NCBI GenBank assembly: GCA_020974905.1
Contig: CP087563.1
Span: 620,001 to 684,000 of the forward strand
Reading direction: 5' to 3'
Source of the DNA: Planctomycetes bacterium syqfu
Lineage (GTDB): Bacteria; Planctomycetota; Phycisphaerae; Phycisphaerales; Phycisphaeraceae
Length of the DNA: 64,000 bases
This document shows positions 4,163-63,274 of this stretch, piece by piece. The notes under the pieces are model-generated. The model did no database searches. It was given only the letters and a program-made list of their open reading frames with translations, and was not told the DNA's origin. Made by a program: the position numbers and the translations under genes. Position 1 is the first letter of the stretch. Each line of letters starts with the position of its first letter.

Positions 4163-7100
4163 TTACTTCACCTCAAGCTTGAGCAGGCGTTGATTGTTAA
4201 CATCTGCCACATACAACCATTGCCTTCCTTCATGTTCAACAGAAACAATTCCCATGGGTTTTGACATTGAAAGACTATCCCGATGATCCATATTGCCGAA
4301 GTGTCCATAACGGCCTAGTAATTTACCCTCGCAGGAAAAGCAGAGAATCTGATTTGTACCGGTGTCCGCAACCCAAATTCGTTGCTTTTGATCCATGGTA
4401 ATCCCCTGCGGATCACGTAATGGCAGGACACCTTCTCCCTGGTGTAGTGCATAGCATGTCTGAAATTGTGTTTGCCCCTTGGAATCCAGACGTGCAATTT
4501 CACGTGTGGAACCGCCAGCAATAAGCAGTCCGCCATCAACGGTTGGATAAAGTCCATATGCAGACCAACCAAAACTTGGCCCCATATCCTTGATAATTGA
4601 TGCTGATTGGATTTTTATATCATCAACCTTTAAAGCACTGATCACCAATGAGGGGCCACGACGCTTTAAGTCATTATTTACATGTTGTATCAACAACCTG
4701 CCCTGCTGATCGACTGTAAGATCAGTCGGCACTATATACGGATTGGGAACCAATGGTTTATTGCCATTGAGCATTTTTGGATTAAGCCAACGTTTACCAT
4801 CTTTCCTGGCCCGGTACACATTTGTTCCTCGCGAATGTGAGAATAAACCACTGTTGGATGCAAGATACAGATCACCATTGGGGGCAAAAGCAAACGACTC
4901 GATATCTGCCCGGACTACATGGGGATCATAAACCACATCAATTTGATCCGTATCACCGGGAATTAGTCTGCATAGTTGATTGTCAGAAAGAAAATAGATG
5001 GCATCGCCATGTGCTTTGAGCTGTGTAATACCGCGAAGGTAATAGGGTTTGAGCGTTGATAGACTTGGGATTGCCAGTGAAGTTGGTTTGGCAGATATCT
5101 GATCAACCGTATATTGCTTGACGAGTAGATTGTCGGCGGCCCCAGTAATACCAACAGTTAAAGCACTTTCGTCTATCATGGCCAATGCATTGATCCATCG
5201 ACCCGCAATTTTTTTCGACCAGGATTCCTTGATCCTTTTTGGTTTATTTTGATTAAATTCGATTGTATATGCTTTGAGCACTGCACTATTTCTTGATGCG
5301 GTGAAGATCATGTTGCTTTCGGGAGAAACCGCCAGATGGCTGATACCTTCTGAATCTTGAATATGTTGATCAAAAAGCTGCTGACCCGTTGTGTCATAAC
5401 ACAGCAAGTGATCATGACTGCTGATAAAAATGTGACCTTTACGATCCGTAGTCAAGCCAGCGATCTGATCCAAAGGTAAACGTAATGCTCCAGAGAGTGC
5501 TGCCCATCCGTCTGGGTATCGGTACAGGCCATAGGCATTTGGGGGATTCGTGATTGAAACAAGCATGTTGCCTGTAGCATCATATGCGATGTGATCATAG
5601 ACACGACCCGGCAAGGATGACTTTACTTCAAGGAGTCTGCCATGCGTGGTTTCATAGATGGATGGTGGCCCCCAGCCTTTGACCACAGCCAGACGATCAT
5701 CTGGCAATGCCCATAGCATTCTAAAACCTGAAAGGTATCGAGGGGGTTCAAGGCGAGGATACTTGGAAATATCCCCCGTTGGAATGTCATGATCCGCAAC
5801 CAAATTCAAAGTCCGTTGATATTGACCATGCACGTCAAAACACATGATCTGCTGATCACTGGCAACATAGAGATTGCCATCAGTATCATGTGTCAAGGCA
5901 TCTGGATTGCGAATATGTCCCCGTGTATCACCAATCACGTTTACCAGACTCACTTCCGGAGATTGGTCTGAGGGATGTAATCCACGCGGTGTCTGTCGTG
6001 CAAATAATGCATCTGGGTAAAATCCGGTCAGATCATAAAGGTGAACCATGTCAGGCAAAAACAGATTTGACCATGCACGCCAATATCGCCCCCCGGTCGC
6101 TGATCCGATGGCTTGATCCATATTCACTATTAGTCGCTTTGCCTGTTGATGATTAAGCTCAACAGCCATCTGTCTGTTGTAAAGCCTATCTCGCATCGGC
6201 TTGATTTGCTGGATCACATGTGAGACCTGCTGCTTAAACGCCTTAGACACAGACGCATCACACGAGGCCACTTTAATTTTATCAGTTGAACAGTAAAAAG
6301 CCTTAAGCATGTAGGGTGGCAATTCAACGGTTAACTTCGCAGAATCTGACAGGTATACTTCTTTATCATCAGTAGCAGTCAATACAGTTGGTTTACCGGA
6401 AAATGAAAGTGTCACTGAGACATTGGTATTCAGTCGATTAACCATGTAGAAAAACTGCTTTTGATCATGAACTTTCTGCCAAACTGCAACAGGATCACGC
6501 CCACCGGCTGAATCTGGTAATGGTTCAAACTGGATATCAGGCAATGCCCGATATTCACGGAGAAAAGGCAACATGACCGAAGGTGTACCCCAGATATGAC
6601 CATTACCACCATTAAACAAAAAACTCGAATCATTCTCTGCTAATGCGATGGCATACAACTCACGTTCGTGAAGCCCTGATGGCGTACAGGCATCAAACGC
6701 GCTGTAACGCCTGGCCCCTAATTTCGTCCAGTCAAAATGTTTGTTGACTTCAAAGTAATCGGAGTAAAAACCAAAGCCACGTCCGCCAAGTTTTGCCAGT
6801 GTCCCTGAGAGCTTGCCAATCGCCTGTTCCCATTTGCGGCTATCAGCTAATGGCGTTGAACGTCTTCGGCCGTAAAGGGCATTAGGGGCAAGGACGATAC
6901 CGGGTTCGGTTGCATAGTTTTGCGGATCAATCCCAATTTCGATAAGTTGATCAAGTGGGTCATCACTTAAACAAGTGTTTTGCCCCACGCCGTGATAAGG
7001 CAGGAACAATTGTGCATCCGGTTTCGCCAGCACAATCCTATCGCGAAGTTTTTGATGGAAGGCAAAGACTTTGTCGCATCGCCACTGATTCCAAAGCTCA

Positions 7101-9097
7101 CGTTTAGGACCGGTAAGAAATTGGAAACGCTGCTTGTATCGCTGCATACTGGCATCATCATCCGGAACAATCACCCCAGTCTCTTTTTCAAACTGCTTGA
7201 TGGTCCAATCACTGTAACCTACGGTGAGTCCGGGAAGCGCGTTCCACCCCTGCCACTGCCATGAGAGCATTAACCGTGAAGAGATACCAGCAAATGATTC
7301 ACAGTCGGCCAAACGATCCGCCAATTCACCGAACACGCTGATGTACGTTTCCTGTACTTTGGGATGCAGAACGTTGTACACAAACGGCTTCCATGGTCCA
7401 CGTAATGAACCATCCCGATTGACATGAACCATATCTTTTGCATGCTGATCTCTGAAGTGGATCTGGTCGTTTTCAACCCAAACCCCCATGACCACACGGT
7501 CAAAATTGACTTGGCCACTGAGATGAAATTCAGGGACAAAACTGCTGCCATAGGCTTGTGCAATTAGTGCAGCCATACGACATTCATCGTTAGTACGGTT
7601 GAAGTAACCAAGCAGAATATCACTGGGGTAGTGATTGGCCTGATAGACATTGATGGTGGGCATCATCAAATTCGCACCCATCATCAGATTGCGTCTGGCC
7701 CATCGCTCCATGGTAAGAATCTGCTGATCCAATGAACTTGACTGGCCACCGAAATGCTTAAGCCAGCGTCCCGACTCTTCAAAGTAATATCCCATCTTGC
7801 GACCACGTGTCTGCCCAAGATGAGCTGCAGGAAGTTGGTCTTGTATCTGATAAATACGAATCCGAGCTGCCGCGGCAGTCGAACCGGGCGTCAGATTAAC
7901 CACAGCAATGGTTATATTTTCATGTTCGCGTGGGTAGAAAATAGCTTCATGCTGAAGCATTTGATTTGTATTCTGATAGCGATCCCCTGTTTCTACACCA
8001 CCCGTAACCGTATTGCCCGTTGAGTTTGATAGCTTGGCACCATCATTGACCCAAAAGCCCATGGTCCGACGGTCATCATCGGGGTAATCGACAACCAATT
8101 TATAAACGTGATCATGATCAGGTAATGTTACGCGATATGCAAAACTCTGAACACCCCAATGCGAATTCAAATCAGCCCCCGTTGTTTGGCGATAACGACC
8201 GAAAGGTTTATTGATGATGACCGAAGGGTTTGAATTTTCAAAGAAGTTCTTTGTCGTACTTGATACACAATCTATATCCACCACCAACGTTTCATTCATC
8301 TCATACCTGTTCATCACCGGTTTGGTATCGATGACAATCAAGCGTCCCAAACCAAGATCGGATGGCTTTAACAATACTTTCCCGACACGAGCCAGTATCT
8401 GATAGATACCTTTTTCATCAGGTTTTATCTGAACATGTTGGATAACGGGCTTTTTTGAAGGCGCAAACGTCAATATCGGCCCATCAGTCAACGCTTGTGT
8501 CATCTCGTTTTTCAGAACAAGCGTGTATTGTGTTTGTGATAAACAACTGCTCGTCAATTCAATGCCAACACTCTGCCCCAGCGCGATGACCTGATGCCCC
8601 GTTGTACGAGCTTGAACACGGCCTGCTGGATCATGACCTGAAGGGCGCAACTGCCATGCATGCGGAAGAGATCCTGGAAATGAATACCGTCGGTATTGCA
8701 ATGCATGCTTACCTTGCGTCAGATAGAGATTACAGTCTTTGATCCAATTCCCGTCATTGGGATCTTTGTCTTCCGAAGTGGCTGTATGGAGACGGTGGAT
8801 GACCTGGCCGTCAAGTAAAATATCGCGTGTCCATTCACTTGGCACACCTGTTTGCCAAAGACTATACCAACCGGATTCTGGCACGTGAATATCGTATTCC
8901 ACCCATCCTTGAGAATGATTGAGTTTACCTTCCTTCTGTTGGCTGACAGGATCAGACCATTTCGGCCACGAAAGATCACTGCGATCAAACGACCAACCGT
9001 CACGTTCAATGATGCCATCGGTCTTTGCATTAGTAATATTGCTCAGTAAGGACAAAGCACATAACAGCATCAAAATTTTTATCATCATGTTTTTCAT
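4163..9097 (-). CDS. Giant exported glycosidase-like protein with C-terminal NHL-type propeller
   Basis: About 1644 aa. I chose the ATG at 9097 (MKNMMIK) because AGAAGG lies about 11 nt upstream and it gives a clean signal peptide; an in-frame ATG at 9118 is the alternative. Order of parts: signal peptide; beta-sandwich modules with a PA14 or CBM look (about 30-430); an alpha/beta region resembling a TIM-barrel hydrolase (about 440-900), containing YSDWTIKQFEKETG; a linker; then a beta-propeller (about 1030-1640) with NHL-like repeats such as RIWVADTGTNQILCF. The central region is clearly paralogous to the next gene upstream (shared phrases around FEE...W, the DWT/DWI segment and AENE/AEND). 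No CAZy family can be named from sight. Likely binds or cleaves polysaccharide outside the cytoplasm. Confidence 0.8.
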   Translation of the reverse strand: MKNMMIKILMLLCALSLLSNITNAKTDGIIERDGWSFDRSDLSWPKWSDPVSQQKEGKLNHSQGWVEYDIHVPESGWYSLWQTGVPSEWTRDILLDGQVIHRLHTATSEDKDPNDGNWIKDCNLYLTQGKHALQYRRYSFPGSLPHAWQLRPSGHDPAGRVQARTTGHQVIALGQSVGIELTSSCLSQTQYTLVLKNEMTQALTDGPILTFAPSKKPVIQHVQIKPDEKGIYQILARVGKVLLKPSDLGLGRLIVIDTKPVMNRYEMNETLVVDIDCVSSTTKNFFENSNPSVIINKPFGRYRQTTGADLNSHWGVQSFAYRVTLPDHDHVYKLVVDYPDDDRRTMGFWVNDGAKLSNSTGNTVTGGVETGDRYQNTNQMLQHEAIFYPREHENITIAVVNLTPGSTAAAARIRIYQIQDQLPAAHLGQTRGRKMGYYFEESGRWLKHFGGQSSSLDQQILTMERWARRNLMMGANLMMPTINVYQANHYPSDILLGYFNRTNDECRMAALIAQAYGSSFVPEFHLSGQVNFDRVVMGVWVENDQIHFRDQHAKDMVHVNRDGSLRGPWKPFVYNVLHPKVQETYISVFGELADRLADCESFAGISSRLMLSWQWQGWNALPGLTVGYSDWTIKQFEKETGVIVPDDDASMQRYKQRFQFLTGPKRELWNQWRCDKVFAFHQKLRDRIVLAKPDAQLFLPYHGVGQNTCLSDDPLDQLIEIGIDPQNYATEPGIVLAPNALYGRRRSTPLADSRKWEQAIGKLSGTLAKLGGRGFGFYSDYFEVNKHFDWTKLGARRYSAFDACTPSGLHERELYAIALAENDSSFLFNGGNGHIWGTPSVMLPFLREYRALPDIQFEPLPDSAGGRDPVAVWQKVHDQKQFFYMVNRLNTNVSVTLSFSGKPTVLTATDDKEVYLSDSAKLTVELPPYMLKAFYCSTDKIKVASCDASVSKAFKQQVSHVIQQIKPMRDRLYNRQMAVELNHQQAKRLIVNMDQAIGSATGGRYWRAWSNLFLPDMVHLYDLTGFYPDALFARQTPRGLHPSDQSPEVSLVNVIGDTRGHIRNPDALTHDTDGNLYVASDQQIMCFDVHGQYQRTLNLVADHDIPTGDISKYPRLEPPRYLSGFRMLWALPDDRLAVVKGWGPPSIYETTHGRLLEVKSSLPGRVYDHIAYDATGNMLVSITNPPNAYGLYRYPDGWAALSGALRLPLDQIAGLTTDRKGHIFISSHDHLLCYDTTGQQLFDQHIQDSEGISHLAVSPESNMIFTASRNSAVLKAYTIEFNQNKPKRIKESWSKKIAGRWINALAMIDESALTVGITGAADNLLVKQYTVDQISAKPTSLAIPSLSTLKPYYLRGITQLKAHGDAIYFLSDNQLCRLIPGDTDQIDVVYDPHVVRADIESFAFAPNGDLYLASNSGLFSHSRGTNVYRARKDGKRWLNPKMLNGNKPLVPNPYIVPTDLTVDQQGRLLIQHVNNDLKRRGPSLVISALKVDDIKIQSASIIKDMGPSFGWSAYGLYPTVDGGLLIAGGSTREIARLDSKGQTQFQTCYALHQGEGVLPLRDPQGITMDQKQRIWVADTGTNQILCFSCEGKLLGRYGHFGNMDHRDSLSMSKPMGIVSVEHEGRQWLYVADVNNQRLLKLEVK

Positions 9098-9123
9098 GTC
9101 ATCATGAACCTTCTGCATGAAAG

Positions 9124-12100
9124 TTACTTTTGTGCAGGTGTTGGTGCCAGTGTGATACCTGAGTCATCAGTGATGTAACCGACAAAACGTGTCCCCAATG
9201 ATCCACCGAGTTGTTTGACCATGAGTGTATTCTCGCCTTTGTCCAACGCCAGTACTGCATGGAAAGTTGGGTAATGCGTGGTAAAGTCATAGCCTGATTG
9301 GGACATCCTGGGATCGATATTGGTCTGTACACGCTTGCCATTGAGAAAGGCCGTTGCCCACCAATCCACGGGGAGATAGAAAATAACGGTGCGTTTTCGG
9401 TCCGATGTTATGGTGCATTGGCCAAAGGCAATGTCCTGTCCGGGTGATCCTGTTCGAATGGTGACATCCACACCCCAATCGTGATAACGCCCACGGACAA
9501 TGCCGTTGTCCTGTTTCCATGTCACCGTCTGCCCATAGGCATTTTGATAGGTGGCATCCAAGGCGTGATTCAACTCCGGCGGGTAAACTTTGCTGAATGT
9601 CCGACGGAGTCCTTCTTCCCCCTTGTATCGTCCTGCCAACATTTCAGTTCCCCACGCACTTTTAAAGGGTCCGACTACTGACCAGACAGAACTCGGCATC
9701 GGCTGCGTGACGGGAAGAACCTTTAAGCCATAGATGCCCATTTTTCCCTGTCGCTGCAGTGTTAAAGTCACCTGACCACGTTTGAGGATGATGGGTGGGA
9801 AGATGCTGCGTTCAGGTTGATTGATATGCGTCGTCACTGCAGGTGTTGCAAGACCTTGCCCATCGATGGAGGCAACGATCGCACCGGTGGTTGAAGCTAT
9901 GTGTCCAAGGTGAATCACGTAGGGTCCATCAGCAGGAATATCCAAATATAACTTGATGACGCCAGCATCAGAAGTCAATACATCATTGCCACGCCAATCT
10001 GGATGATATTCTTCAGATGGGATCAACTTGGCCTTCGAATCAACGGTCTGCATTTTGCTTAATGTGTCTGAAGCAATCATGGGTGATAGCAGTTCGTAAT
10101 GCTGATTCTTGTCTTCAGATTTCATCAAGTTCGGGAAGCGCGTGATGATCTGACCTTGGGGCAATTGAGCCATGAGATTGTAAACCTGCAGCATGTCCGG
10201 CCGGGAGAGTTCGGTGACCGTACGCCATGTTTGACCTGCCGACATCGCTTGCCATGCACGATCCAAGCCTATTTTGAAGGCCTTTTTTTCATTTTCAGTG
10301 ACGGTTGCTGCTGCATCAGTGTTTAATTTATCCCGGAGGGTTTGAGCAAATGCCAAACGCTGTCGAGCGTAGTCGATTTTCTTTTCTGGTAGATGCTCAG
10401 TCACCACACCTAATTGCGCATCCGCTGCAGCACGGAAGGATTTGAGCCCATAAGCAGGCAGGTTTAACACAAGCTTGTAACCATTACGATCAAGGATTTT
10501 CTGCTGACCAAGATCAATGACCGGTTGATTACTTTGAATCGTCAAGACAACTGAAACGTTGTCCGGCGTTCGGTTCACAGCATAGAAATAATACCCGGCA
10601 GGGACGGTATCAGACGACTGTTCGGCATCCACTTTACCATGCCAGATTGCAACCTGATCCAGTGTGTGATCCAGTTGTTTAAAGGCAATGGCAGGGATCG
10701 TGCGGTAGGTATCAAACCATGACTTGTAATATATTGGGCTGCCGAACATGTCAGTATTCCCGCCATCTCGAAAGAAGGTCGTATCCTGATCGGCCAGGAC
10801 CACAGCATATTTTTCAAGACTATGTCGTCCGGCCCCCAAAGCTGCTGAGCAGAAGTATGGCGGTGTTTCATTTTCGGCCATGATGATACCGAGTTTACGG
10901 GCGGACCATTCACGTGATTGTTCCAGATAGTTCATGTAGGAAGCAAACGTACGAATCTTCCCCATTCCTGACTGGAGATTTTCAAGGTCAAGGAATCCGT
11001 CGTAATACTTCTGATACCGCATCGCTGTTGAAGCTGAACCATAGCGTCCGCCGGGCATGAAGATGAGTTCGGGAATGTTTTTTCGCGCATTTAAATCCAC
11101 CCCGGCTTCCAGGGCACGTGTGAGAATATCCTTTGGCAAGTCGTAAATCGCGTCTGTCCTGAAGTCGCCTGAGAAACCAAAGACGATATCATCACGCCCA
11201 CCAGCCAGTGCATCATGAAAACGTTTGTGATAATCGAGCAGACGTTCACACCGCCAATTGATCCAACGGTCTCGCATGGGCGATGCAGTGAGGAATTCAA
11301 ATCGTTTGGCAAAGCGTTTGGGATCATCCATGTTCCCTGGAACTTTGATACCTGTATCCCTTTGAAACTCTGACATGATCCAGTCGTTATAACCCCAGTA
11401 AATGCTGGGCAAAGTAAAATCGCCATGAAACTGCCAGACATCTGCACGGACGGTTAACCCAGCAAAAGCAGGCGAATCGCCGAGTTTCCGGTTGAGTTCT
11501 TTTGCAACGTCAACATAAAAATCCTGAACACCGGTATGCAAGGCATTGATATCACAATGAGCCCCCGCTGCTTTAAGGACACCATTGAGACTGGTCGGGC
11601 GGACATCAAGCGGATTTTCTGAAAGTGACGGGATTTTAATGTTGGTGAAATAGGATTGATTGCCGAAGATTTCGAGCATATATTTCATGCCGTACTTTTC
11701 GCAGAACAAAGCAAGCAGACGACAGCGGTCATAAGGCTCGGGCATAAATCCGTCGAGCAGCTGTGTCCGCCAAAAGGCGCCTTGATAGGCAACCCCCAAT
11801 GCCTGAATCCCATTACCGCCATAGTATTGAACCAGACGCACCCAGCGATCCAGACCGATCATATCTTTGACGATCTGCTGATCACGGATGCCAGCGATCC
11901 CAACGAGGAAACGCCAGTTGTGTGCTTCTTCAAACCAGTGATAAAAATCACGCGTGCCCTGACTGCTGAGTTTGATGGCAGGCAGTCGGTCATCTTCAAA
12001 ACGTTTGAGTCGGATTTTCGCGGCTGCGGCACGTGTCCCTGGTTCCTGACATTCAAAGGAAACCAGCAATGTCTTTGAGTCCCCCCAACTGACTGCTGAA

Positions 12101-13305
12101 TGTGTCTGCATATCATTTGTTAGTTTAAACCGCCCACCGGTTTCATAACTCTTGCCTTGATAGCCACTGGATGCCTTGAGGAATCCGCCGGTTTCGTCAT
12201 CCACCCATGTCATGATGACCGCGACGCTTCGTCTGGCATCATCGGGGAAATCGACTTCCAATTGATAAGGTACCTGTGACTGCGGCACACGTATGCGATA
12301 GGAAAAACCTGAGTAACTATTGGGCATTTTCACCGCGGTTTTCGGGACTTCGGCTTCTGGTGGTGTGCAATCGTGACTCTCACGGTAAGGCCCCATCTTG
12401 CCTTGCGTGATCCGCGTAGGACCATTGGCTTCAAAGTAGTCACCTTCTGCAATACGCTGACCATTGAGGGTTTGATTGACGCAATCAATCTCAGCAACCG
12501 TCATCAATTTGTCAGAGACTCTCTGGATATGATTCACATCGACGACAGCATAATCACCGATTTTAAACTCTGCCGGACTGAGGGTTTTAGCATCGACTTG
12601 AGCAGAAAGATAAAATGCACCTTCGCGCGGACAGTCAATCAGCACCGTTTTTGTCTCCGGTTGATCACGCGCCTCAAACACAACGTTCCCAACCTTGACA
12701 GCAGATTGATCGGGATGCATTTGGTCCTTGCTGAGCAAGGTGTAGGTTGCAGACTTACCATTACCCCCCGCGGTGATTTGAATCTTGAATTGTTCACCAG
12801 CACGCATGACATCAACATCTGTTTTGCTCGCCGAGATCGTTGCAGCAGGATTATCATTGGCAGGAAGTAATTCAAAGCGGTCGAAAATTTTCTTAGGGAA
12901 ACTCATTCGACCGACACGGCGAATCTTGAGGATATGTTTGCCTGCGGTGAGATAGAGATTACCAGCCTTTTCGTCTTTGCCTGGATGCGCGTATCGCCAT
13001 TGATCCTGCCCATCAACAAAGACATCATGATTCAGTCCCGCACCACCACGCAGATACAATTCATACCAGCCCGCTTGCGGAACTTGAATCTGCCAATCCA
13101 GATCAAAACCGTGCGGTAGATTTTTGGGACTGGGTTTAGCAAAATCCCGACCATCGCTCCAGCGTGAGGCATCGGCTTTCCAAAACTCGCCGGACAGCCT
13201 TGCTGCACCAGATTGCACCTGAGCGGACACATTCTGAAATGAGAGCAGTATCACAATGGTTAAAATCACAGCGCAAACTGGAAGCCAGACACTTTGCATA
13301 CTCAT
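9124..13305 (-). CDS. Giant exported glycosidase-like protein, paralogue of its downstream neighbour
   Basis: 1393 aa, ATG with AGGTG upstream. Signal peptide at residues 1-28 (cleavage near VSAQ). The N-terminal half has two beta-sandwich, carbohydrate-binding-like segments. A TIM-barrel-like region follows (about 430-900; FYHWFEE, YNDWIMSEFQRDTG and a MAENETPPYF segment). The C-terminus is a beta-rich module that ends in a binding-type domain with KGENTLMVKQLGG, instead of the propeller found in the paralogue. It follows a pseudopilin gene by 70 bp and ends 26 bp before the chosen start of the next giant gene. The barrel region matches the paralogue in order and in several motifs, which suggests duplication followed by domain swapping at the C-terminus. 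Glycoside hydrolase activity is inferred, not shown. Confidence 0.8.
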   Translation of the reverse strand: MSMQSVWLPVCAVILTIVILLSFQNVSAQVQSGAARLSGEFWKADASRWSDGRDFAKPSPKNLPHGFDLDWQIQVPQAGWYELYLRGGAGLNHDVFVDGQDQWRYAHPGKDEKAGNLYLTAGKHILKIRRVGRMSFPKKIFDRFELLPANDNPAATISASKTDVDVMRAGEQFKIQITAGGNGKSATYTLLSKDQMHPDQSAVKVGNVVFEARDQPETKTVLIDCPREGAFYLSAQVDAKTLSPAEFKIGDYAVVDVNHIQRVSDKLMTVAEIDCVNQTLNGQRIAEGDYFEANGPTRITQGKMGPYRESHDCTPPEAEVPKTAVKMPNSYSGFSYRIRVPQSQVPYQLEVDFPDDARRSVAVIMTWVDDETGGFLKASSGYQGKSYETGGRFKLTNDMQTHSAVSWGDSKTLLVSFECQEPGTRAAAAKIRLKRFEDDRLPAIKLSSQGTRDFYHWFEEAHNWRFLVGIAGIRDQQIVKDMIGLDRWVRLVQYYGGNGIQALGVAYQGAFWRTQLLDGFMPEPYDRCRLLALFCEKYGMKYMLEIFGNQSYFTNIKIPSLSENPLDVRPTSLNGVLKAAGAHCDINALHTGVQDFYVDVAKELNRKLGDSPAFAGLTVRADVWQFHGDFTLPSIYWGYNDWIMSEFQRDTGIKVPGNMDDPKRFAKRFEFLTASPMRDRWINWRCERLLDYHKRFHDALAGGRDDIVFGFSGDFRTDAIYDLPKDILTRALEAGVDLNARKNIPELIFMPGGRYGSASTAMRYQKYYDGFLDLENLQSGMGKIRTFASYMNYLEQSREWSARKLGIIMAENETPPYFCSAALGAGRHSLEKYAVVLADQDTTFFRDGGNTDMFGSPIYYKSWFDTYRTIPAIAFKQLDHTLDQVAIWHGKVDAEQSSDTVPAGYYFYAVNRTPDNVSVVLTIQSNQPVIDLGQQKILDRNGYKLVLNLPAYGLKSFRAAADAQLGVVTEHLPEKKIDYARQRLAFAQTLRDKLNTDAAATVTENEKKAFKIGLDRAWQAMSAGQTWRTVTELSRPDMLQVYNLMAQLPQGQIITRFPNLMKSEDKNQHYELLSPMIASDTLSKMQTVDSKAKLIPSEEYHPDWRGNDVLTSDAGVIKLYLDIPADGPYVIHLGHIASTTGAIVASIDGQGLATPAVTTHINQPERSIFPPIILKRGQVTLTLQRQGKMGIYGLKVLPVTQPMPSSVWSVVGPFKSAWGTEMLAGRYKGEEGLRRTFSKVYPPELNHALDATYQNAYGQTVTWKQDNGIVRGRYHDWGVDVTIRTGSPGQDIAFGQCTITSDRKRTVIFYLPVDWWATAFLNGKRVQTNIDPRMSQSGYDFTTHYPTFHAVLALDKGENTLMVKQLGGSLGTRFVGYITDDSGITLAPTPAQK

Positions 13306-13375: not shown

Positions 13376-14260
13376 TTACCACATGGAATAGTCCGACTTG
13401 CCATCTGCCCCGACGCCCGGTGCAAAGTACAACCCCGACATGTCATACCCTTTCTCCCCGGCTTCGGACGAAGGGGCGATCACTTCCGGGGGGAGCAATG
13501 CGACATGCCCATCAGCTGCGACATAGTTGGCTGCACCATTGTGTAACCGCCCGATCCAGCCTTCGACATTGCCAACGTCAAAACGTCTAGTGGTCAGTGC
13601 ACGTTCTTCCCATTTCCAACCCCACTTGTAGGTGTAAAGGTTGGCATAGGCCTTGTTGTTGGTGACCGAATTTTTACGCGCTGAATGTCCGAGCAAAATC
13701 GTCCTGGAAGGCGAATGGACTTGTTCAGCTTTTGTATGACCTTCACCGTTATTGTTCACCCCGTAGGGATAGGGTTCACCGCCAGTGTCCTTGCGCCAAC
13801 CGCGAAAAAGATGAGCATTGGCAAAGTAACTGACACCCCCTGCTTCATACCATTGAAGACTGACACTCATGTCCGTGGGACAATCCCAGATGAGTTTCTT
13901 GATCAACGGATCATCGCGATATGGCGCTTTCCAGCCTGTCCAATGCTCAGAAAACGGCACCATTTTGTTCGTCGCATACTTATCAATACGCTGGGTCCAA
14001 GTTATGTCGATTTTTTCCTGGCTGTTGCGATCCGTACCCGGTGCGTAGATGTTGTTAAAGTCCACCAGATACGTTGCAACCGACACACAAAGCTGACGCA
14101 TGTTGGTTGCACAGGTCACCGTCTGAGCCGATTTACGAGCCTTGGCCAATGCCGGGAGCAGGATGGCGACGAGGATGGCAATGATTGAGATGACAACAAG
14201 CAATTCGATGAGCGTGAATCCTGTAACAAATTGTTTCGGACGTGCGTAATGTGGAGGCAT
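13376..14260 (-). CDS. Type II pseudopilin with H-X9-DG motif
   Basis: 294 aa. The start is the ATG at 14260 with AAGGA 9 nt upstream; the frame is open further but that extension lacks pilin character. The N-terminus has the prepilin cleavage and methylation motif: G, then [13 protein letters not shown] and a hydrophobic helix. The rest is a globular domain ending with the H-X9-DG motif ([12 protein letters not shown]), typical of the planctomycete-type processing-associated pilin family. It is expected to be cleaved by a prepilin peptidase and assembled in a type II secretion-like or type IV-like fibre. It lies between a LacI gene and a giant exported protein, an arrangement repeated elsewhere in this window. 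Family firm; which fibre it joins is unknown. Confidence 0.92.
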
Positions 14261-14369
14261 CTTGTTTTTCCTTCGCAGTCTGAGTCTGTGCGGGACAACT
14301 GAACAGGATCGCAACAGGCGATGTCGCGTCCATGGAAAAAACATCAAGCGTGGCTCAAACGAATTGCCT

Positions 14370-15386
14370 TTACTTTTCCAACGGTGCAGTGGATTGGCGG
14401 ACGATCAGCTCAGGGCTGACGCGGACGCGCTTGGTTGTGCACTTTGGATTTTTAATCTTCTCTTCAAGCAATCGCCAGGCTTCCTGGGCAATCACATCCG
14501 GCTTCTGGTCAATGGTGGTCAGACCCGGTGAAACCAACTCGGCAAAATCAAGATTGGCACAGCCTGTGATGGATAAATCATCGGGTACACGCATGCCAAA
14601 TTCATTGGCAACATGCATCGCACGCAGTGCATCCTGATCCGTCATGCAAACCATGGCTGTGAGTTTGGGATTCGTATCGAACAACTGGCGGATCATCTGC
14701 TCAACAGGCGTACGCCAATGCGGACGCTGGACAACGCAGTGAGGATTGACTTTCCCAAGCACCTTCTTCATGGCCTTGCAATAGCCTGCATAACGCTGCT
14801 CTAGAATCATGCCATCAGGTGTCCCCCGCAGGCATCCGATGTGGGTATGACCCAGTTCCAACAAATGCATGGTTGCAAGATAACCACAGGCCTCGTTGTC
14901 GTTGACCACCAATGGCACATCAATGCCTTCATATCCGCAATCCAAAAACACGATTGGCAGCTTGCGTTTGACCAATTGCTTGTAGTAAGCCTTATGCCCA
15001 AACGCATCATCAGGGCAAATGATCATGCCATCGACACGATGTTGTCGGAAGGTGTCAATTCCTTTCATGAGCTTATCGTGATTGGAGTGACTTTGTGCCA
15101 GCAAACACTGATAGCCTGACGCCGAAGCAAGTTGCTCCAGTGAATTGAGAATGTCGGGAAAAAACGAAACTCGGACTGCGGGGACAATCACCCCGATCAC
15201 GCCGGTTTTTTTATTTTGCAGTCCACGAACCAGCGCATTGGGTTGGTAGTCATATTTTTCCAACGCCTTGCGGATGCGTTGACATGTCGCTTCACTGAGT
15301 TGGTCTTCGCGCCCGTTAATCACGTGACTCACGGCCACACGGGACACGCCCAACTCCTGGGCAATTTGCTTCATGGTTACATGCAT
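14370..15386 (-). CDS. LacI-family transcription regulator
   Basis: 338 aa. The N-terminal LacI helix-turn-helix is plain ([20 protein letters not shown]), followed by a hinge and a periplasmic-binding-protein-like sensor domain (about 62-335) with the usual [13 protein letters not shown] and [10 protein letters not shown] segments. It starts the minus-strand operon that includes a pseudopilin, two giant exported proteins and a fucosidase, so it most likely controls that operon in response to a sugar. ATG at 15386 with GGTG 10 nt upstream; ATG at 15374 is a possible alternative. A 16-bp palindrome lies 41 bp upstream of the start. Confidence 0.93.
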
Positions 15387-19813: not shown

Positions 19814-19845
19814 GGATTATCAAAAACAATAAGTGCCAAGTGCAT

Positions 19846-20856
19846 ATGAGCCGAATCACTCTCAAACAGGTTGCCGCCCAGGCCAGTGTCTCCGTTCAGA
19901 CGGTCAGTCATATTCTCAACGACCGGCCGGACAAGCCGTACAAGCAGGCGACGCGTGACCGTGTTCTGGATGCTGCCAGGAAGCTGGGGTATCGCCCCAA
20001 TGCAGCAGCACGTTCGATGGTGACCCAACGAACGCGCAACATCGGGCTTGTGATGCACACCAATCCCCAAGCGTGGTTCAACACGGTCGATGCTTACGAG
20101 ATCATGCTCGGCCTTAATGCCCTGCTCAGCCCCAAGGGTTACATCTGTTCCATGATTCCGGTGGGCAGTCTGAGTGAACCCGGCAGCGAATCACGCATCT
20201 TCCGCGAACAGGTTTTGGATGGTGTGGTCGTCTGTGGCCATGCTGATGAAAATGTCTATGAACGTATCCAACAATCCGTTGAACTGTGTATCTGGGTTGA
20301 TACCGACATTAATCGGCCGCAGGGATGTATCCGACGTGATGAACAACACAATGCTTATCTTGCTGCCATGAAATTAGCGGAGTTGGGTTACCGGAAAATC
20401 ATCTGGATGGACTACGCATTGCATTGGTCGCATTATTCTCATCGCGATCGACAAGCCGGTTTGGATAAGGCCATGCGCGACTTTGACCTGCAGGGCGATA
20501 CGCTGCCGTGTACCCAATCCTGGATCGGCAAGTCGCCTTCAACCATCGCCCAAAAACTCGGGCCGGATGTCGCGGTCATCACGTCACGTCATCAGTTTGC
20601 ACATAGCTTGATGCACACGCTGCTTCACGAAAATCTTCGCCCGGGTTACGACTACGGCCTGGCAACCCTGGATGTTTCCAATGACTCGGAACATGCCTGG
20701 CCGGGTTTGTGTTCGGTTCAGACAGATCGTTCGAACATCGGCAAGCTTGCTGGACACATGTTCCTCAATGCCCTTGAAAACAAGGGGAAATTACCCGATT
20801 CGGTTTGTCTGCAAGGCACATGGCATGCGGGTGATACCGCATGGGGACCACGATAA
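19846..20856 (+). CDS. LacI-family transcription regulator
   Basis: 336 aa from ATG 19846; a GTG at 19840 is the alternative. DNA-binding head [20 protein letters not shown], hinge with [13 protein letters not shown], then a sensor domain (about 62-335; [30 protein letters not shown]). The gene is preceded by two matching palindromes at 19777-19813, very likely its own operators. It is followed after 62 bp by a pseudopilin gene and then a strong terminator, so this unit has regulator and pilin only. It may also act on the divergent sulfatase unit. Confidence 0.93.
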
Positions 20857-20918
20857 ACGGCAACCTAATCGCAGAGGACACACGCTTCATTGCAATCATT
20901 GATTTGAGGATCAATCCC

Positions 20919-21548
20919 ATGCATCGTAAAGCTTTCACACTCATCGAACTTCTGGTGGTGATCTCCATCATTGCCCTGCTCATATCCATCCTCCTGCCAG
21001 CTTTGAGTAAGGCCAAGGACAGTGCGACCAATGTCAAATGCGCTGCCAATCTCAAGCAGATCGGCGTAGCGGAACATGCCTACGCTGAGGACAACGATGA
21101 CAGCTTTACTTATGTCTATAACGGTTCAGGCCCACGATGGATTCACTCGATTCGTGATTACGTCAGCGGGGCCCGTCATAACGATCCGACCAGCGTGGTG
21201 AATTGTCCTGCAGCAGACAAGTCACTGTTTTCAGGTAACAATAACTCCTACGGCTTGAACTTTGCCATGCGTAACAGTCGTTGGCGACACAAGCGAACCG
21301 TCGTCCTCAAACCTTCACAGATTGTCATCGGCACAGACCGCGTCGTTGCTGACCTGGACTACACCTTCACCAGTGATGGGTATCGCTATGTCAACAGTTG
21401 GTCGACCGCCAGTTGGGCCAAGCCGGTCTCTTTCCGTCACCTTGCCAACAATTCGGGCAATGCCTTTTTCGTCGACGGGCATGTCCAATCCATGCGTTAC
21501 GAAGAGCTGACCTACCAAACCAAACCCAACGCCTGGATCTGGTGGTAA
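20919..21548 (+). CDS. Type II pseudopilin
   Basis: 209 aa. ATG 20919 (MHRKAF) is chosen for the GAGG 8-9 nt upstream and because the prepilin signal follows at once: short basic leader, [13 protein letters not shown], hydrophobic helix ending LLPALSKAK. The C-terminal segment [19 protein letters not shown] is a longer variant of the H-X9-DG motif (11 residues between H and DG). Short for this family. It pairs with the upstream LacI gene and is closed by a terminator at 21605-21649. Confidence 0.92.
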
Positions 21549-21775: not shown

Positions 21776-22816
21776 ATGCGAATCACTCTCAAACACATTG
21801 CCACCCAGGCCAGCGTCTCTGAGACCACCGTCTCGAAGGTGCTCAACGGCAAGCATGTCGAAGCGCGGATCACCCCAGACTGCGCCAAGCGTGTTTGGGA
21901 TGTTGCCAACAAACTCGGTTACCGCACCAATGTGGCAGCCAAAGCCACCGCGACCGGTCGGTTCGACACCGTGGGTTTGTTGAAAGTCGAAAACAAGGGC
22001 ATTGGTCTTGGCCAACTTCCTGAAGGTTTACTCACCGGGATCGAAAAGCATTTCAGTCTTGAGCGGATTCGTCTGAACTTCACGACAGTCCGCCAATCGG
22101 ATTGTCAGAAAGGCAATGTACCTCAAGCCCTGCGTGAGTCATGGGGCGATGGGTTACTGCTTTTTGGTTGCTGGGAGATTCCGCAAGCGATTCGGCAGGC
22201 CATTGTCAGTATGCGATTGCCCTACGTGATGATTGGCGTAAAGCAGGATCACGATGCGGTGTACACGGACGAGTACAATGCTGCCAAACAGGCAACGGAG
22301 CATTTACTGGAACTGGGGCACAAGCGCATCGCCTATGTGCCGGATCATTACCTGTACCAGTATGTCCAGCAGGATCGTCAACGCGCTTACTCGCAGGTCA
22401 TGCAGCAGGCCGGACTCACACCGATGATTGTCGAATTGCCTGCTCAGCATCGATCGATGGAAGTTTCGCCTTACGATGCGAATCATGCTCAGCGCGTGGC
22501 TTTACTCACCGGAGGTCACCCCCCCACTGCGATCATTGCGGACACCGTGGATCAGGCTTACCCCATTCTCGGGGCAGCATGGCAGGCGGGCTTGAAAGTC
22601 CCCGACGATCTGTCCCTGGTCACCTATCACGATGTGCTTGCGACACAGTTGGGTCCAACCATCACCACCATGCTCATACACACTGCAGAATACGGCATTA
22701 CTGCCGCCAAACAGTTACTGGAACTCATTCGACATCCCAAGCAGGATCATCAATCTCAAGTCATCAGGTATTCACTCTGTCAAGGTCACACAACCACGCA
22801 ACCTATCTCCAAGTGA
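21776..22816 (+). CDS. LacI-family transcription regulator
   Basis: 346 aa. Head domain ITLKHIATQASVSETTVSKV, hinge KLGYRTNVAAKA, then sensor domain (about 64-340) with HLLELGHKRIAYVPD and PDDLSLVTYHD. Followed after 31 bp by a pseudopilin and then a 1311-aa secreted hydrolase, all on the same strand, so it probably controls that cassette. No strong ribosome site is visible. An imperfect TTGCT-N10-AGCAA dyad lies upstream, too weak to call as an operator. Confidence 0.92.
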   Translation: MRITLKHIATQASVSETTVSKVLNGKHVEARITPDCAKRVWDVANKLGYRTNVAAKATATGRFDTVGLLKVENKGIGLGQLPEGLLTGIEKHFSLERIRLNFTTVRQSDCQKGNVPQALRESWGDGLLLFGCWEIPQAIRQAIVSMRLPYVMIGVKQDHDAVYTDEYNAAKQATEHLLELGHKRIAYVPDHYLYQYVQQDRQRAYSQVMQQAGLTPMIVELPAQHRSMEVSPYDANHAQRVALLTGGHPPTAIIADTVDQAYPILGAAWQAGLKVPDDLSLVTYHDVLATQLGPTITTMLIHTAEYGITAAKQLLELIRHPKQDHQSQVIRYSLCQGHTTTQPISK

Positions 22817-22847
22817 TATCGATTGGATTCAACGGGAAGACGTAACC

Positions 22848-23678
22848 ATGCAACTTTTCAAGCAAACATCACGGACGAATCAACCTGCCACAGATGCATT
22901 CACACTCATTGAACTGCTGGTGGTGATTTCCATTGTTGCACTGCTGATCTCCATTCTTCTGCCTGCTTTGAGACAGGCTCGCGAGTCCGCCAGAGCAATT
23001 CAATGTCTGACAGGATTAAGACAATCAGGCATGGGCGTGATCGCTTACTCCGAAGATTTCAAGTTATGGATGATGTGCCACGACGCCCAGCAGCAGTTGC
23101 CATCCACTTCCGTCAAGACACCGTTGCGCTATGAACGTTACTGGTCGATCCAGCTTAAGCGGAACGGGTATCTGCCCAAGACCAATGTCGCCAAATTTGA
23201 AAAAGACGGTGGCTGGAGTTCCGCCTCGCGTGACTACTACTGGACTGCGACCTACAAGAGCTTCAAGGATATCACCATCTGTCCTGAATCACCGCAGACC
23301 ATCAAGTACATGCGGGCTGATTACATGGACTATGGCATGCGTAAGTCACCATGGGGTGCCGAAGAACAGTATGACAGCAACTACCGCACGGTTCGCATTG
23401 ATACGGTCAGCATGCGTAAACCCTACCTGATGGACTCAGGCCGAACCGATGCGCCGCATCCTGTTTCGGGACAAACCGAAAGCGCCAGCCCACAATTTAA
23501 TGGCGTCAGTGATAACGGTGTGACCCCCAAGCAAAGTTATGCCATCATCGCCCGCCGACATCTGGATGGCTCCAACGCGTGGATGCCTGATGGCTCAGGT
23601 AAACGCATGGGCCAACAGGAACTACTTGACCTTGAAGACAACTCCCTGCCATACAGCTGGTTCAGCCAGGAGTTTTAA
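22848..23678 (+). CDS. Type II pseudopilin with H-X9-DG motif
   Basis: 276 aa from ATG 22848 (MQLFKQ), with GGGAAGA upstream; an earlier in-frame start would overlap the LacI gene. Prepilin signal [19 protein letters not shown] begins after an 18-residue leader. The motif H-X9-DG appears as HLDGSNAWMPDG near residue 250. Lies between a LacI gene and a secreted clan GH-A hydrolase gene that starts 77 bp downstream. Confidence 0.92.
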   Translation: MQLFKQTSRTNQPATDAFTLIELLVVISIVALLISILLPALRQARESARAIQCLTGLRQSGMGVIAYSEDFKLWMMCHDAQQQLPSTSVKTPLRYERYWSIQLKRNGYLPKTNVAKFEKDGGWSSASRDYYWTATYKSFKDITICPESPQTIKYMRADYMDYGMRKSPWGAEEQYDSNYRTVRIDTVSMRKPYLMDSGRTDAPHPVSGQTESASPQFNGVSDNGVTPKQSYAIIARRHLDGSNAWMPDGSGKRMGQQELLDLEDNSLPYSWFSQEF

Positions 23679-23755
23679 ACCAAACCGCAACGCTGTGATT
23701 TAAGCAACATCAAACTCAATTTCGTATGTTTTTTTGATTCGGAGATTTTGTTCCC

Positions 23756-26700
23756 ATGCAGTCACTTATCCTACACCCGAAACGTCTGATCATCGCCCTG
23801 GCCACGGTCATGCTCCTGTGTATGCCCAACATGCTCAAAGCAGAATTGATCCTGGGTACGTTTGAAGACCCCAAAGACACCGACGGCAAACTCATCGAAG
23901 GCTGGTACTTCTCCAACGGCGGGGAATACGGCGGTGCCAAAGGTGGTATGAAACTTGATGATATGGACAGCCACAACGGTGATGGCTGCCTCGCTCTCAC
24001 TGCAGACTTTAGCGGCGGTGGCAAGTATGTCGCAGTCCGCAAACGTCTGAATCTCTCCAAGTCTGAAAAGCCTGAGAAGATCACCTTCTACATCAAGAAT
24101 CAATCTCTGAACTATCTGCTGGTTCGCGTGATTGATGAGACCGGCCAAACCTTCCAGCATCGCATCAATGTCAAACAGGCTGTGAGTTGGCAGAAAATCG
24201 AACTGGATAAAATGGTCACCAAACCCAACTGGGGTGGCGCAAAAGACGGCAAGTGGCATGGCCTGATTTACGAGTTCGGTATCCTCATCGAAAAGCAGGC
24301 CATCACCGATGGCAAGGAAGCGCAACTGCAAATCGACGATGTGTACATCAACGGTGAAGCGCCTTCAGATGTCTCAGCCAAAGCGGATACACCTGTATCC
24401 ACAAAACAAGCCAAACAAATCACCAAGGCCCCTTCCAAACTCCCGCTGCCGTTGGGGGAGTTTGAGGATGGCACCGTCTCAGGCTGGTGGGTCCATCGTG
24501 ATGGTTCAGCGCCGGCCCCTTATGCAAGTTCATCCAATCCACACACTGGCAAGGGGTGTATGGCGGTCCCCATTGATTTCGGGGATCGGGATTGGATGTC
24601 ACTGATCCGCCAGATCGATCAGCCAGTCTCTGTCAGGGAGCTGGCTTTTTTTGCACGCTCCGAAAATCTGAATGGTATCTCCGTCATCATCCATACCGCG
24701 ACCGGACAACGCTATCAGAAAGACATCAAACTCAATACCAACGGTGATTGGCAGACCATCCAACTCAACGATCTGCCCAATGACAATCCATCACTGGGTT
24801 CCAGTAACACACAGATGTATGACGCCCAGATGATGCTCAAAATTGCCATCAACCAAGGCGACAAAACCAACGCCAACAAACCTGCCACACTCTGGCTTGA
24901 TGATGTCTCCGTTGGTGTGGATGCCAAGGAAGGCATGGTAAATCTCCCGGGAGCTGTCTTTGTCAGCCAAGGACCGCTCTCGGCATGTTTACAACTCCAG
25001 CGCACCATCCCCGTCTACTTCGGGCAAAGTGAAAAACCAGACCACGTCATCTTCACTTTGAAAAACGACGGTAGTCAATCCGTGGAATCACCGCAGGTCC
25101 TCCTGCTGGATCATCAACTCCGACCCGTCAAAACACTGGCAAAACAAGGGCAATTCAGTGTTGCCCCCAAGTCCACCGTACAACACACACTCAATGTGGA
25201 CCTGCCCCAGTACGGACATTACAGCATTGTGACACAAGTCGGTGATCGTCAGGCCCAAGCCAAACTCGCTTGGATGGCTGAAACTGCCCAGCCGGATAGC
25301 AAAAGTGAGTTTGGTGTGCAGACGCACTTCTCGCATGGCCCATGGGGTCGTACACAATATTTCGGTGGTGCAGAAGGCGTGTTGAAAATGGCAGCCAATC
25401 TCGGAGCCGGTTGGGTTCGTGATGATGCACACGCACGGTTCCGTGGTGAAACCATGATCGAGCCGGAAAAGAACCTGTGGAGCTTTACGGATAATGCTGT
25501 GAAATTCGGTTTAAGCCCGATGATCAGTCACTTTGATTTTCTGGATGATGGCAAAGCGCCGGATGATGATGCCAGTCGCCAGCGTTTTGCCAACCGAGCT
25601 GTGCAGGTGCTCGATCACTATGGCAAAGATGTCAAGGTCTACGAAGTCTGGAATGAGCCGACCATTCAACCGGGGTGGAAACGGACACCTGATGCGGTGG
25701 AATACACCAAACTGCTTAAGACGGTCTACACCACCATCAAGAAACATCACCCTGAGACGACCGTGCTTGGCGTCTGTAGTGCAGGGACCGATTTTGGTTT
25801 TATCGAAACCGTCCTGAAAAATGGTGGCGGGAAATTCATGGATGGTATCTCCGTGCATCCCTACCACGGTGTCGCGCCTGAACTGGCAGCCAACCGACAT
25901 GAACCGGCTCCCACATGGATGGGGTCGGGCGATACCATCACGTTTGAAAAACGCATCGCAGCCATCAAGGTTCTGCTCGAAAAATATGGTGTTGGAGACC
26001 TGCCAATCTGGGGGACGGAGATGGGCTACAACAACAAGGATGCGCGTGAAGACTGGAAGCAAACCCAATGGCTTATCCGCCAATATCTCATTGGCATGTC
26101 CATCCCCTATCTCACTCGACAGTTCAATTACAACTTCAATGACCAGGGCTACAACTCACCCGACTCCACCAAGATGACGTTCGGCATGTTCCAGGGCAAC
26201 GGCATGCCCGAGCCCAATGCCGTGGCATACAACACCATGTCACGCATGCTTCATGGCAAGAAGTTTGACCGCAAAATCGACCTCGGTAAAGACATCTTCG
26301 CTTACCGCTATGTCAATCGTGACAACGATGCGGATCCCGCCCTGGCGATCTGGTGTGTGGATGATGGCATGACACTTGGCCTGAAAACTAGCCGTTCTTC
26401 CATCACGTCAACGGACTTGATGGGAAATCAAACCATCATCCATCCGATTAACGGTACCTTCACCATGGCAGTCACCGGCGAAGTCACCTTCCTGGCTGAT
26501 CCGGGCCAACTCACCGTCACCGAGCCACAAATTCAAATCACCGCCCCCGAGCGCTGCACCAGTGAAGAACCGTTGCATGCGACCGTGTCATTTGCCAACG
26601 GCTTTAACCCGGATCACGTTCACGCATTGGCGCCACAGTTGTGGCTTGATGCGCAAGTCGAAAATAACAAGCTCAAATTCACACCAGCCCCAACGTTGAC

Positions 26701-27691
26701 AACGGGACGTTACATCATGACCGTCAAAGCCGATGGGATGTCCGCTGCAACTGCCGTTGATTTAGCCAACTCAATTTTCCTCACCACCACCCTGACTGCC
26801 AAAGGTGTGGATGTCACGATTAACAATCCGTTCCCCTATGACCGCAAGATGCGACTGCGTGTTGCAGCCGGTGACCAGCGTATGCAGGAACGCCCGACAT
26901 TATTTGCAAGCCAGTCACAGTCCTTCAGCTTCCCGGTTCAGTCTCAAATGGAAAAAGGTTGGGTGTGTCAGCCGGTACGAATCAACCCGCAACTGCGCGA
27001 TGGTCGTCGTGGTTACATCCAAATGACCGAAGGATCGTCGGACTCAATGCTGGCTGGGCAGACACCGTTGTATGCCATCAAGCAAGTGCGTATTGACGGT
27101 GATGTGCGCGAGTGGCAAACGTATCAACCCTGCATCCTCGATGGCAAAGACCTGGCAGTGAAGCTCGGCAAGAACCAATCCTGGGAAGGCAGTGAGGATC
27201 TGTCTGCACGATTTTATGTCGGAGATGACGGGGAGAATCTGCTGCTTGCCATCACCGTGACGGATAACCATTTCACGCAAGGGGCGCCGGTCAATCTGAT
27301 GTGGCAGGGAGATAGTGTCCAGTTTGCCATCGCCACCAGTGATCAGGCCAAGGAGCGTCATGAATACACACTCGGCGTTGACGCAAACGGCATGTTGCAG
27401 GTCTATGAACAGTCCCCGGTCAAACGCAGCATCACCCAGCAGGTCAAGACCGCAGTCCAAACCAATGGCAATCAACGTGTCATGGAATTGGCCATCCCCT
27501 GGGCCATGCTCGCCATCTCAAACCCGCAGACTCAGCCGATCCGGTTCGCCCTGCTGGTGAATGACAATGATGCAAAAGATATGGACAAGGACAATCTCCT
27601 GCGTAACCGCAAGAGCTTTCTCCAATGGTTCCAAGGCATTGGTGGAGCACGCAAAGAGCCATCAAAATACAGCTTTTTCGTGCGACAATAA
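23756..27691 (+). CDS. Large secreted clan GH-A glycoside hydrolase with binding modules
   Basis: 1311 aa with signal peptide (residues 1-30, cleavage near MLKAE). Two beta-sandwich modules (about 30-195 and 225-385) look like carbohydrate-binding domains. After an immunoglobulin-like spacer, a (beta/alpha)8 catalytic domain spans about 510-880: VYEVWNEP places the acid/base at Glu634, and LPIWGTEMGY places the nucleophile at Glu755, the retaining GH-A layout, closest in feel to GH39/GH5-type enzymes. The C-terminal part (about 1105-1311) resembles a family 9-like (CBM9/DOMON) binding domain with the opening VRIDGDVREW. Third gene of a LacI-pseudopilin cassette and followed by a terminator. 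Substrate unknown; hydrolase call is strong, family number is not. Confidence 0.85.
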   Translation: MQSLILHPKRLIIALATVMLLCMPNMLKAELILGTFEDPKDTDGKLIEGWYFSNGGEYGGAKGGMKLDDMDSHNGDGCLALTADFSGGGKYVAVRKRLNLSKSEKPEKITFYIKNQSLNYLLVRVIDETGQTFQHRINVKQAVSWQKIELDKMVTKPNWGGAKDGKWHGLIYEFGILIEKQAITDGKEAQLQIDDVYINGEAPSDVSAKADTPVSTKQAKQITKAPSKLPLPLGEFEDGTVSGWWVHRDGSAPAPYASSSNPHTGKGCMAVPIDFGDRDWMSLIRQIDQPVSVRELAFFARSENLNGISVIIHTATGQRYQKDIKLNTNGDWQTIQLNDLPNDNPSLGSSNTQMYDAQMMLKIAINQGDKTNANKPATLWLDDVSVGVDAKEGMVNLPGAVFVSQGPLSACLQLQRTIPVYFGQSEKPDHVIFTLKNDGSQSVESPQVLLLDHQLRPVKTLAKQGQFSVAPKSTVQHTLNVDLPQYGHYSIVTQVGDRQAQAKLAWMAETAQPDSKSEFGVQTHFSHGPWGRTQYFGGAEGVLKMAANLGAGWVRDDAHARFRGETMIEPEKNLWSFTDNAVKFGLSPMISHFDFLDDGKAPDDDASRQRFANRAVQVLDHYGKDVKVYEVWNEPTIQPGWKRTPDAVEYTKLLKTVYTTIKKHHPETTVLGVCSAGTDFGFIETVLKNGGGKFMDGISVHPYHGVAPELAANRHEPAPTWMGSGDTITFEKRIAAIKVLLEKYGVGDLPIWGTEMGYNNKDAREDWKQTQWLIRQYLIGMSIPYLTRQFNYNFNDQGYNSPDSTKMTFGMFQGNGMPEPNAVAYNTMSRMLHGKKFDRKIDLGKDIFAYRYVNRDNDADPALAIWCVDDGMTLGLKTSRSSITSTDLMGNQTIIHPINGTFTMAVTGEVTFLADPGQLTVTEPQIQITAPERCTSEEPLHATVSFANGFNPDHVHALAPQLWLDAQVENNKLKFTPAPTLTTGRYIMTVKADGMSAATAVDLANSIFLTTTLTAKGVDVTINNPFPYDRKMRLRVAAGDQRMQERPTLFASQSQSFSFPVQSQMEKGWVCQPVRINPQLRDGRRGYIQMTEGSSDSMLAGQTPLYAIKQVRIDGDVREWQTYQPCILDGKDLAVKLGKNQSWEGSEDLSARFYVGDDGENLLLAITVTDNHFTQGAPVNLMWQGDSVQFAIATSDQAKERHEYTLGVDANGMLQVYEQSPVKRSITQQVKTAVQTNGNQRVMELAIPWAMLAISNPQTQPIRFALLVNDNDAKDMDKDNLLRNRKSFLQWFQGIGGARKEPSKYSFFVRQ

Positions 27692-51435: not shown

Positions 51436-51491
51436 ATTGCACTCCATAACATGCATTGCATTTTTCATCTTGATGAGCTTTTCCAAACCAC

Positions 51492-53678: not shown

Positions 53679-53734
53679 CAATTAACTCCGTCTCTTTTCA
53701 AATGAGATTCGTTTGTTACAAGGCTGTTTTGAGT

Positions 53735-60022: not shown

Positions 60023-60047
60023 GTCAATCTTGACAAGGAGTGGTTCA

Positions 60048-63214: not shown

Positions 63215-63274
63215 TCCTTGGAACATGATCGAAAAATGCGATAGCCCAAGCAAGTCTCCGACAGGAAATTCAAA

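Follow-up and report, generated by a model that had tools for sequence, protein, structure and literature searches.

In a window of 64,000 nucleotides from Planctomycetes bacterium syqfu (contig CP087563.1, positions 620,001 to 684,000; coordinates below count from the first letter of this window), two giant proteins, A (P0002) and B (P0001), appear to form a real, conserved pair of probably secreted barrel enzymes, for which sequence comparisons and structural models point to a probable hydrolase role on a fucose-containing glycan. The reading to which we incline, with somewhat more conviction than doubt, is that A and B are secreted multimodular glycan enzymes of a GHL10-related hydrolase subfamily. 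Working as a pair, they would attack a polysaccharide that contains fucose and is probably acetylated, after which the glycoside hydrolase (GH) family 29 fucosidase and the SASA-type carbohydrate esterase of the same cluster would finish the products. Each barrel would be catalytic and flanked by sandwiches, with an accessory end that differs between the two proteins, a module in A and a propeller in B. Hydrolysis, in endo or exo mode, would depend on a glutamate at the strand-7 end, namely E783 of B and E795 of A, and not on the strand-4 aspartate of GHL10, the second carboxylate coming from strand 1 (E440 in B, E459 in A) or strand 3 (E523 and E545). The breakdown of fucoidan is poorly understood (PMC12786026), and Planctomycetota have many unassigned proteins within their carbohydrate gene clusters (PMC11131199). 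In this context, the A/B family offers a fold predicted with confidence, homology to a named superfamily and specific candidate residues.

The two genes lie in tandem on the minus strand, with A at 9124..13305 (1393 residues) and B at 4163..9097 (1644 residues; the longest open reading frame (ORF), with its start at 9118, has 1651). Both proteins present a hydrophobic N-terminus that, by inspection, suggests secretion. They are 27% identical across 1132 residues in BLASTP (E 5e-113), from the N-terminus to approximately residue 1090, a likeness far above chance. An initial annotation, made from the sequence alone, had described two giant paralogues that share beta-sandwich and barrel parts and differ at their C-termini, and this description is borne out by the alignment, by predicted models with a sandwich, a barrel and a further sandwich, and by the nature of the two ends.

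In order, A and B have in common an N-terminal sandwich, a second sandwich, the barrel and, past it, another sandwich and a helical segment, after which they diverge. The N-terminal sandwich module (A residues 29-261, 12523..13221; B residues 25-261, 8315..9025; these and all other module and codon coordinates are on the minus strand) occurs too on the downstream SASA esterase, whose N-terminus is 33% identical to that of B (E 1e-52). It is followed by the pre-barrel sandwich (A residues 266-440, 11986..12510; B residues 268-425, 7823..8296, delimited by alignment to A), the (beta/alpha)8 barrel (A residues 452-870, 10696..11952, from a model aligned to that of B; B residues 433-853, 6539..7801) and the post-barrel sandwich, which is like the C-domain of GH13 in A (residues 871-962, 10420..10695) and is placed by the model in B (residues 854-944, 6266..6538). 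The C-terminal module of A (residues 1065-1391, 9133..10113), probably sugar-binding, is also found at residues 449-754 of the GH29 protein P0004 (25% identity, E 2e-31). B ends instead in an NHL-like propeller region (residues 1044-1644, 4166..5968), which matches PF01436 (NHL, E 1.8e-10) and PF08450 (SGL, E 2.1e-7) in Pfam and NHL propellers in the PDB. Since several proteins of the cluster have modules in common, a single substrate for the whole cluster is suggested.

With regard to classification, neither barrel matches a Pfam or NCBIfam enzyme family at the cut-off, and P0002 has no sequence match in the PDB. The GH29 domain PF01120, which P0004 matches with an E of 5.9e-82, is found in neither protein. 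Against Pfam GHL10 (PF02638), the core of B scores 21.7 bits, under the gathering cut-off of 27.9, and A gives no match. Nevertheless, 29 of the 50 sequences that make up the family for all residue counts and the tree do match GHL10, distant members included (best E 2.3e-19), a family profile aligns with ten canonical GHL10 proteins in hhalign (99.4%, E 9.1e-22, 200 columns), and the top sequence match in the PDB is the GHL10 protein Cwp19 (E 1.3e-8). By these sequence comparisons, the barrel family is homologous to GHL10 and is not an orphan. The suggestion of an unclassified glycoside hydrolase family thus holds as far as the lack of a match at cut-off level is concerned, whereas a match to an existing family does exist at the level of the superfamily; GHL10 is an old hypothetical glycoside hydrolase family with a solved structure, so "unclassified" is too strong. 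As of 2017, GHL10 had not been given a CAZy number (PMC5765458), and a literature search turned up no planctomycete proteins annotated as GHL10.

The AlphaFold2 model of the B barrel with its sandwich, built on the 50 sequences, has a mean predicted local distance difference test score (pLDDT) of 87.2 and a predicted template-modelling score (pTM) of 0.90. The model is a TIM barrel whose rim carries conserved acidic residues, and its secondary structure places strands 1, 2, 4, 5, 6, 7 and 8 at residues 434-439, 477-484, 604-607, 696-704, 734-739, 774-778 and 826-831, respectively. The best structural matches are PgaB of GH153 (Z 22.9, 3.2 Å over 321 residues) and Cwp19 (Z 21.6), and further matches were obtained with the GH151 fucosidase 6tvk (Z 19.6, 389 residues aligned) and GH42 (Z 19.3), then GH164, GH35, GH29 and GH156. 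The matches come from VIA-align, and families absent from its list are not taken as excluded. A first model, from nine sequences and with the preceding sandwich included, reached a pLDDT of only 72 and superposed poorly on GH13, GH27 and GH31 at the global level, and no conclusions were drawn from it.

Cwp19 (PDB 5OQ2 and 5OQ3) shares with the family the homologous barrel and the motifs N-lhPeV, G-Y-x-D-x-T and W..WR. Its active site is built around D195 and D196 at strand 4 (PMC5765458), and this pair has been lost in the family: each of the two columns is acidic in a single sequence out of 50, and in B the positions are taken by R608 (codon 7274..7276, at the strand-4 end) and L609. A glutamate just after predicted strand 7 in the family probably occupies the position of Gly328 of Cwp19; a glutamate is also found at the end of strand 7 in PgaB and in GH42, where it is catalytic (PMC5765458). 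The C-terminal domain of PgaB (PDB 4P7O and 6AU1) is the closest fold, yet it was not matched by sequence in the PDB and its catalytic D474 (PMC5933820), mapped onto strand 4 via Asp196 of Cwp19 (PMC5765458), has no acidic counterpart in the family. GH42, of clan GH-A, has the same barrel followed by a sandwich (Z of about 19 over some 390 residues), but the family lacks its strand-4 acid/base glutamate (R608/L609 in B) and there is no significant sequence relationship (E 0.09 or worse). The GH151 alpha-L-fucosidase (PDB 6TVK) aligns over the model range 7-513, with only 11% identity in the aligned part and with a strand-4 nucleophile, D154 (PMC10154630), that is likewise without counterpart. 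The GH156 sialidase (PDB 6S00, Z 16.4) is a barrel with Cwp19 as a near neighbour; its catalytic pair is Asp14/His134, with the base Asp14 near the N-terminus of the barrel (PMC6811678).

The strand-7 glutamate, a candidate catalytic residue (E783 in B, codon 6749..6751; E795 in A, codon 10921..10923), is tentatively placed at the position of the GH42 catalytic glutamate by predicted secondary structure. It is found in 44 of the 50 family members, and a threonine or serine stands there in five sequences of a side branch. The end of strand 1 contributes E440 in B (7778..7780) and E459 in A (11929..11931), a candidate for catalysis or binding that is acidic in 39 of the 50, and the end of strand 3 contributes E523 in B (7529..7531) and E545 in A (11671..11673). 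Within a close clade of 14 divergent sequences from two phyla, Armatimonadota included, E440, the adjacent E441, R608 and D630 are invariant, and the glutamates of strands 3 and 7 are kept in 13, the exceptions being one aspartate and one alignment gap. In all, the rim residues E440, E441, E523, E783, R608, Y485, W613 and Y742 are retained in 13 or 14 of the clade sequences. E783/E795, E440-E441/E459-E460 and E523/E545 are better catalytic candidates than the two motifs put forward in the initial annotation, YxDW(T/I) and AEN(E/D). The former is indeed shared (column 1118 in both proteins), and its aspartate (D630 in B, 7208..7210) is present in 42 of the 50 sequences; it is nonetheless a poor catalytic choice and was demoted, as it equals the GYDDYT, GYDPYT or GYDNYT motif found across GHL10 and, in the model, opens the helix that follows strand 4. 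Being invariant in the clade, this aspartate may still have some role. The AEN(E/D) segments are not equivalent, with AENE (residue 810 of P0002) in alignment column 1321 and AEND (residue 820 of P0001) in column 1349. Moreover, AENE is missing from a 73%-identical orthologue, and the likeness was discarded as due to chance.

The pair recurs beyond this window. With A alone as the query, the barrel family was found in 3 of 101 genomes of the order, and a nine-sequence profile detected it in 38 of 392 Planctomycetota genomes; later searches revealed as many as eight copies within a single genome. A search of named genomes with a three-row alignment as the query added the Phycisphaerales UBA7800, the isolate SZUA-567 and two metagenome-assembled genomes of Armatimonadota, DeMMO6_22 and CG2_30_59_28, whose members are 45-46% identical to the core of B. 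Searches of phage and viral contigs gave no relatives of the barrel family. In the tree, the A lineage comprises A, its counterparts in G039 (a genome of the same genus; G039A) and G331 (G331-1432), and the A protein of a second pair locus in the genome of syqfu (support 98/87), all with the C-terminal module of A. The B lineage comprises B, G039B and G331-1712 (support 100/100), all with the propeller; the B protein of the second locus also has the propeller and sits on a long branch. The A and B tandem is present at both loci of syqfu, in G039, in G462, in G331 (in reversed order) and in the Armatimonadota contig L142. Given its presence in planctomycetes and Armatimonadota, either the hosts diverged only after the duplication had taken place or transfer has carried the tandem from one host to another, and the data favour neither.

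Several relatives depart from this arrangement. An Armatimonadota protein (L143, 6681-10712) is a natural chimera of a B-like barrel (39.5% identity to P0001) and the C-terminal module of A. In L117 (5653-11438), a propeller occurs as a protein of its own (558 residues), directly behind an A-type protein and accompanied by a GDSL esterase, as if the propeller of B were a separable gene. These two cases indicate that the core and the end module are not welded together, and the chimera provides a natural experiment on the roles of the two C-terminal parts. The incomplete 2.3-Mb genome G402 contains eight copies of the barrel family, three of them within ORFs of 2054 to 3006 residues.

With regard to the substrate, GH29 and the SASA esterase accompany the pair both in the cluster of syqfu and in that of G039. 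In contig L142 of Armatimonadota, the genes after the pair are a prepilin gene, an unknown gene, a GH95 gene at 2.6 kb (PF22124, E 1.5e-71), a homologue of P0003 and a second GH95 gene at about 12.6 kb (E 3.6e-177). GH29 and GH95 have different folds and both hold alpha-L-fucosidases (PMC10154630). The hint of a fucose-containing substrate thus rests on more than one neighbour, GH29 in one phylum and GH95 in another. In addition, a more distant family member, located at 5.08 Mb in the genome of syqfu, has a GH95 gene 6.9 kb away, and its G039 counterpart has one at 1.8 kb. At the gene densities observed (GH29, nine in 7.38 Mb; GH95, seven in approximately 4.9 Mb), uniform chance would not be expected to give such neighbours; as genes for carbohydrate-active enzymes tend to cluster, the argument is of moderate strength. 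Genomes with the family have a mean of 6.1 GH29 genes, against 1.5 in those without it (one-sided Mann-Whitney p 1.7e-4), a weak association in which relatedness and genome size are uncontrolled. The cluster esterase hints that the substrate is acetylated. The idea of a fucose-rich sulfated polysaccharide is retained for fucose, through GH29 and the GH95 genes of a distant homologous locus, and not for sulfate: the sulfatase genes of the window were dropped as cluster members, as the stretch read upstream of the LacI gene in the orthologous G039 cluster contains none.

A number of points weigh against catalysis on a fucose-containing glycan. The end of strand 4 bears no standard glycoside hydrolase acid/base, structural resemblance in a model does not show function, and some family members may be non-catalytic, as the side branch without the strand-7 glutamate means that not every member need be active. 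Furthermore, GH95 also includes enzymes that are not fucosidases, genes for carbohydrate-active enzymes cluster in any case, the G331 pair locus has no GH29-like neighbour, and the second pair locus of syqfu has GH4 and GH2 genes instead of a fucosidase. This last locus, together with a GH127 gene near the relative in L117, would suit barrels that hydrolyse a glycan other than fucan, e.g. alpha-glucan, arabinan, mannan or the peptidoglycan attacked by Cwp19, the nearest structure by sequence, which has been described as a lytic transglycosylase (PMC6016235). Such a substrate appears rather unlikely, given that the strand-4 aspartate pair of GHL10 is missing, that fucosidases of two unrelated families recur, and that the secreted multimodular build, the upstream LacI gene and the modules that A and B have in common with GH29 and the esterase, respectively, fit polysaccharide catabolism. 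We consider it less probable still that the barrels are non-catalytic and belong to surface proteins that bind or scaffold glycans and present them to GH29 and the esterase. The sandwiches and the propeller do make up much of each protein, part of the wider family has lost the strand-7 glutamate, and the strand-4 position on which GHL10, GH153, GH42 and GH151 rely bears no acid; however, rim residues kept across two phyla are what would be expected of an active site under selection. Lyase, phosphorolytic or transfer activity is very improbable, since, unusual as the strand-4 arginine in place of aspartate is, the match of one of 28 members to lacto-N-biose phosphorylase (PF09508, E 0.074) is not significant and the best folds are those of hydrolases or a lytic transglycosylase.

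A bolder version of the preferred hydrolase reading, which is put forward only tentatively, is that A and B are the two arms of a new glycoside hydrolase family. These arms would travel between phyla as a tandem and jointly depolymerise a fucose-containing polysaccharide through carboxylates of strands 1 and 7, unlike the strand-4 catalysis of GHL10 and GH153.

Within the window, P0003 (2270..4162, minus strand, 630 residues) and then the GH29 alpha-L-fucosidase P0004 (2..2263, minus strand) come after A and B with no gap of note. P0004 extends past the window start, and the SASA esterase lies beyond it. Upstream of A, also on the minus strand, there are genes for a protein that is prepilin-like by sequence (13376..14347), with no Pfam match at E 1e-5, and for a LacI-family regulator (14370..15386). 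Both have counterparts in G039, the prepilin-like protein at the same position and the regulator as a 78% orthologue upstream; the gene order there is LacI, prepilin, A, B, P0003, an oxidoreductase, GH29 and esterase. P0003 matches nothing in the PDB and no Pfam family above the cut-off. Its homologues adjoin pair members elsewhere, and its C-terminal part has homologues beside barrel-family members in other genomes (L128, 5021-6517; L150 19168 to L151 688; L152, 2-1249), with another four short copies in the genome of UBA7800. A scan for promoters and terminators gave a signal at or below the level of shuffled sequence.

The upstream genes belong to a recurring unit, in which a LacI- or GntR-type regulator and an N-methyl prepilin (DUF1559-like) precede a giant secreted protein or a glycan enzyme. 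This unit is found in the window at 13376-15386, 19840-21548, 21776-27691 and 60030-64000, in L015 (4134-17357) and in L142. It is present at both pair loci of syqfu, and prepilins also stand beside barrel-family members in distant relatives. Behind one such LacI and prepilin gene pair, at 23756-27691, a giant protein of 1311 residues, outside the A/B barrel family, has a C-terminal CBM9-like domain as its sole recognised domain. Elsewhere in the window (49258-53681), adjacent proteins of 742 and 729 residues, one with a GH71 match under the cut-off and the other without a Pfam match, adjoin a LacI gene at 54478. Finally, a single protein at 42915-44867 joins an FlgI-like (flagellar P-ring) domain with HEAT-like repeats.

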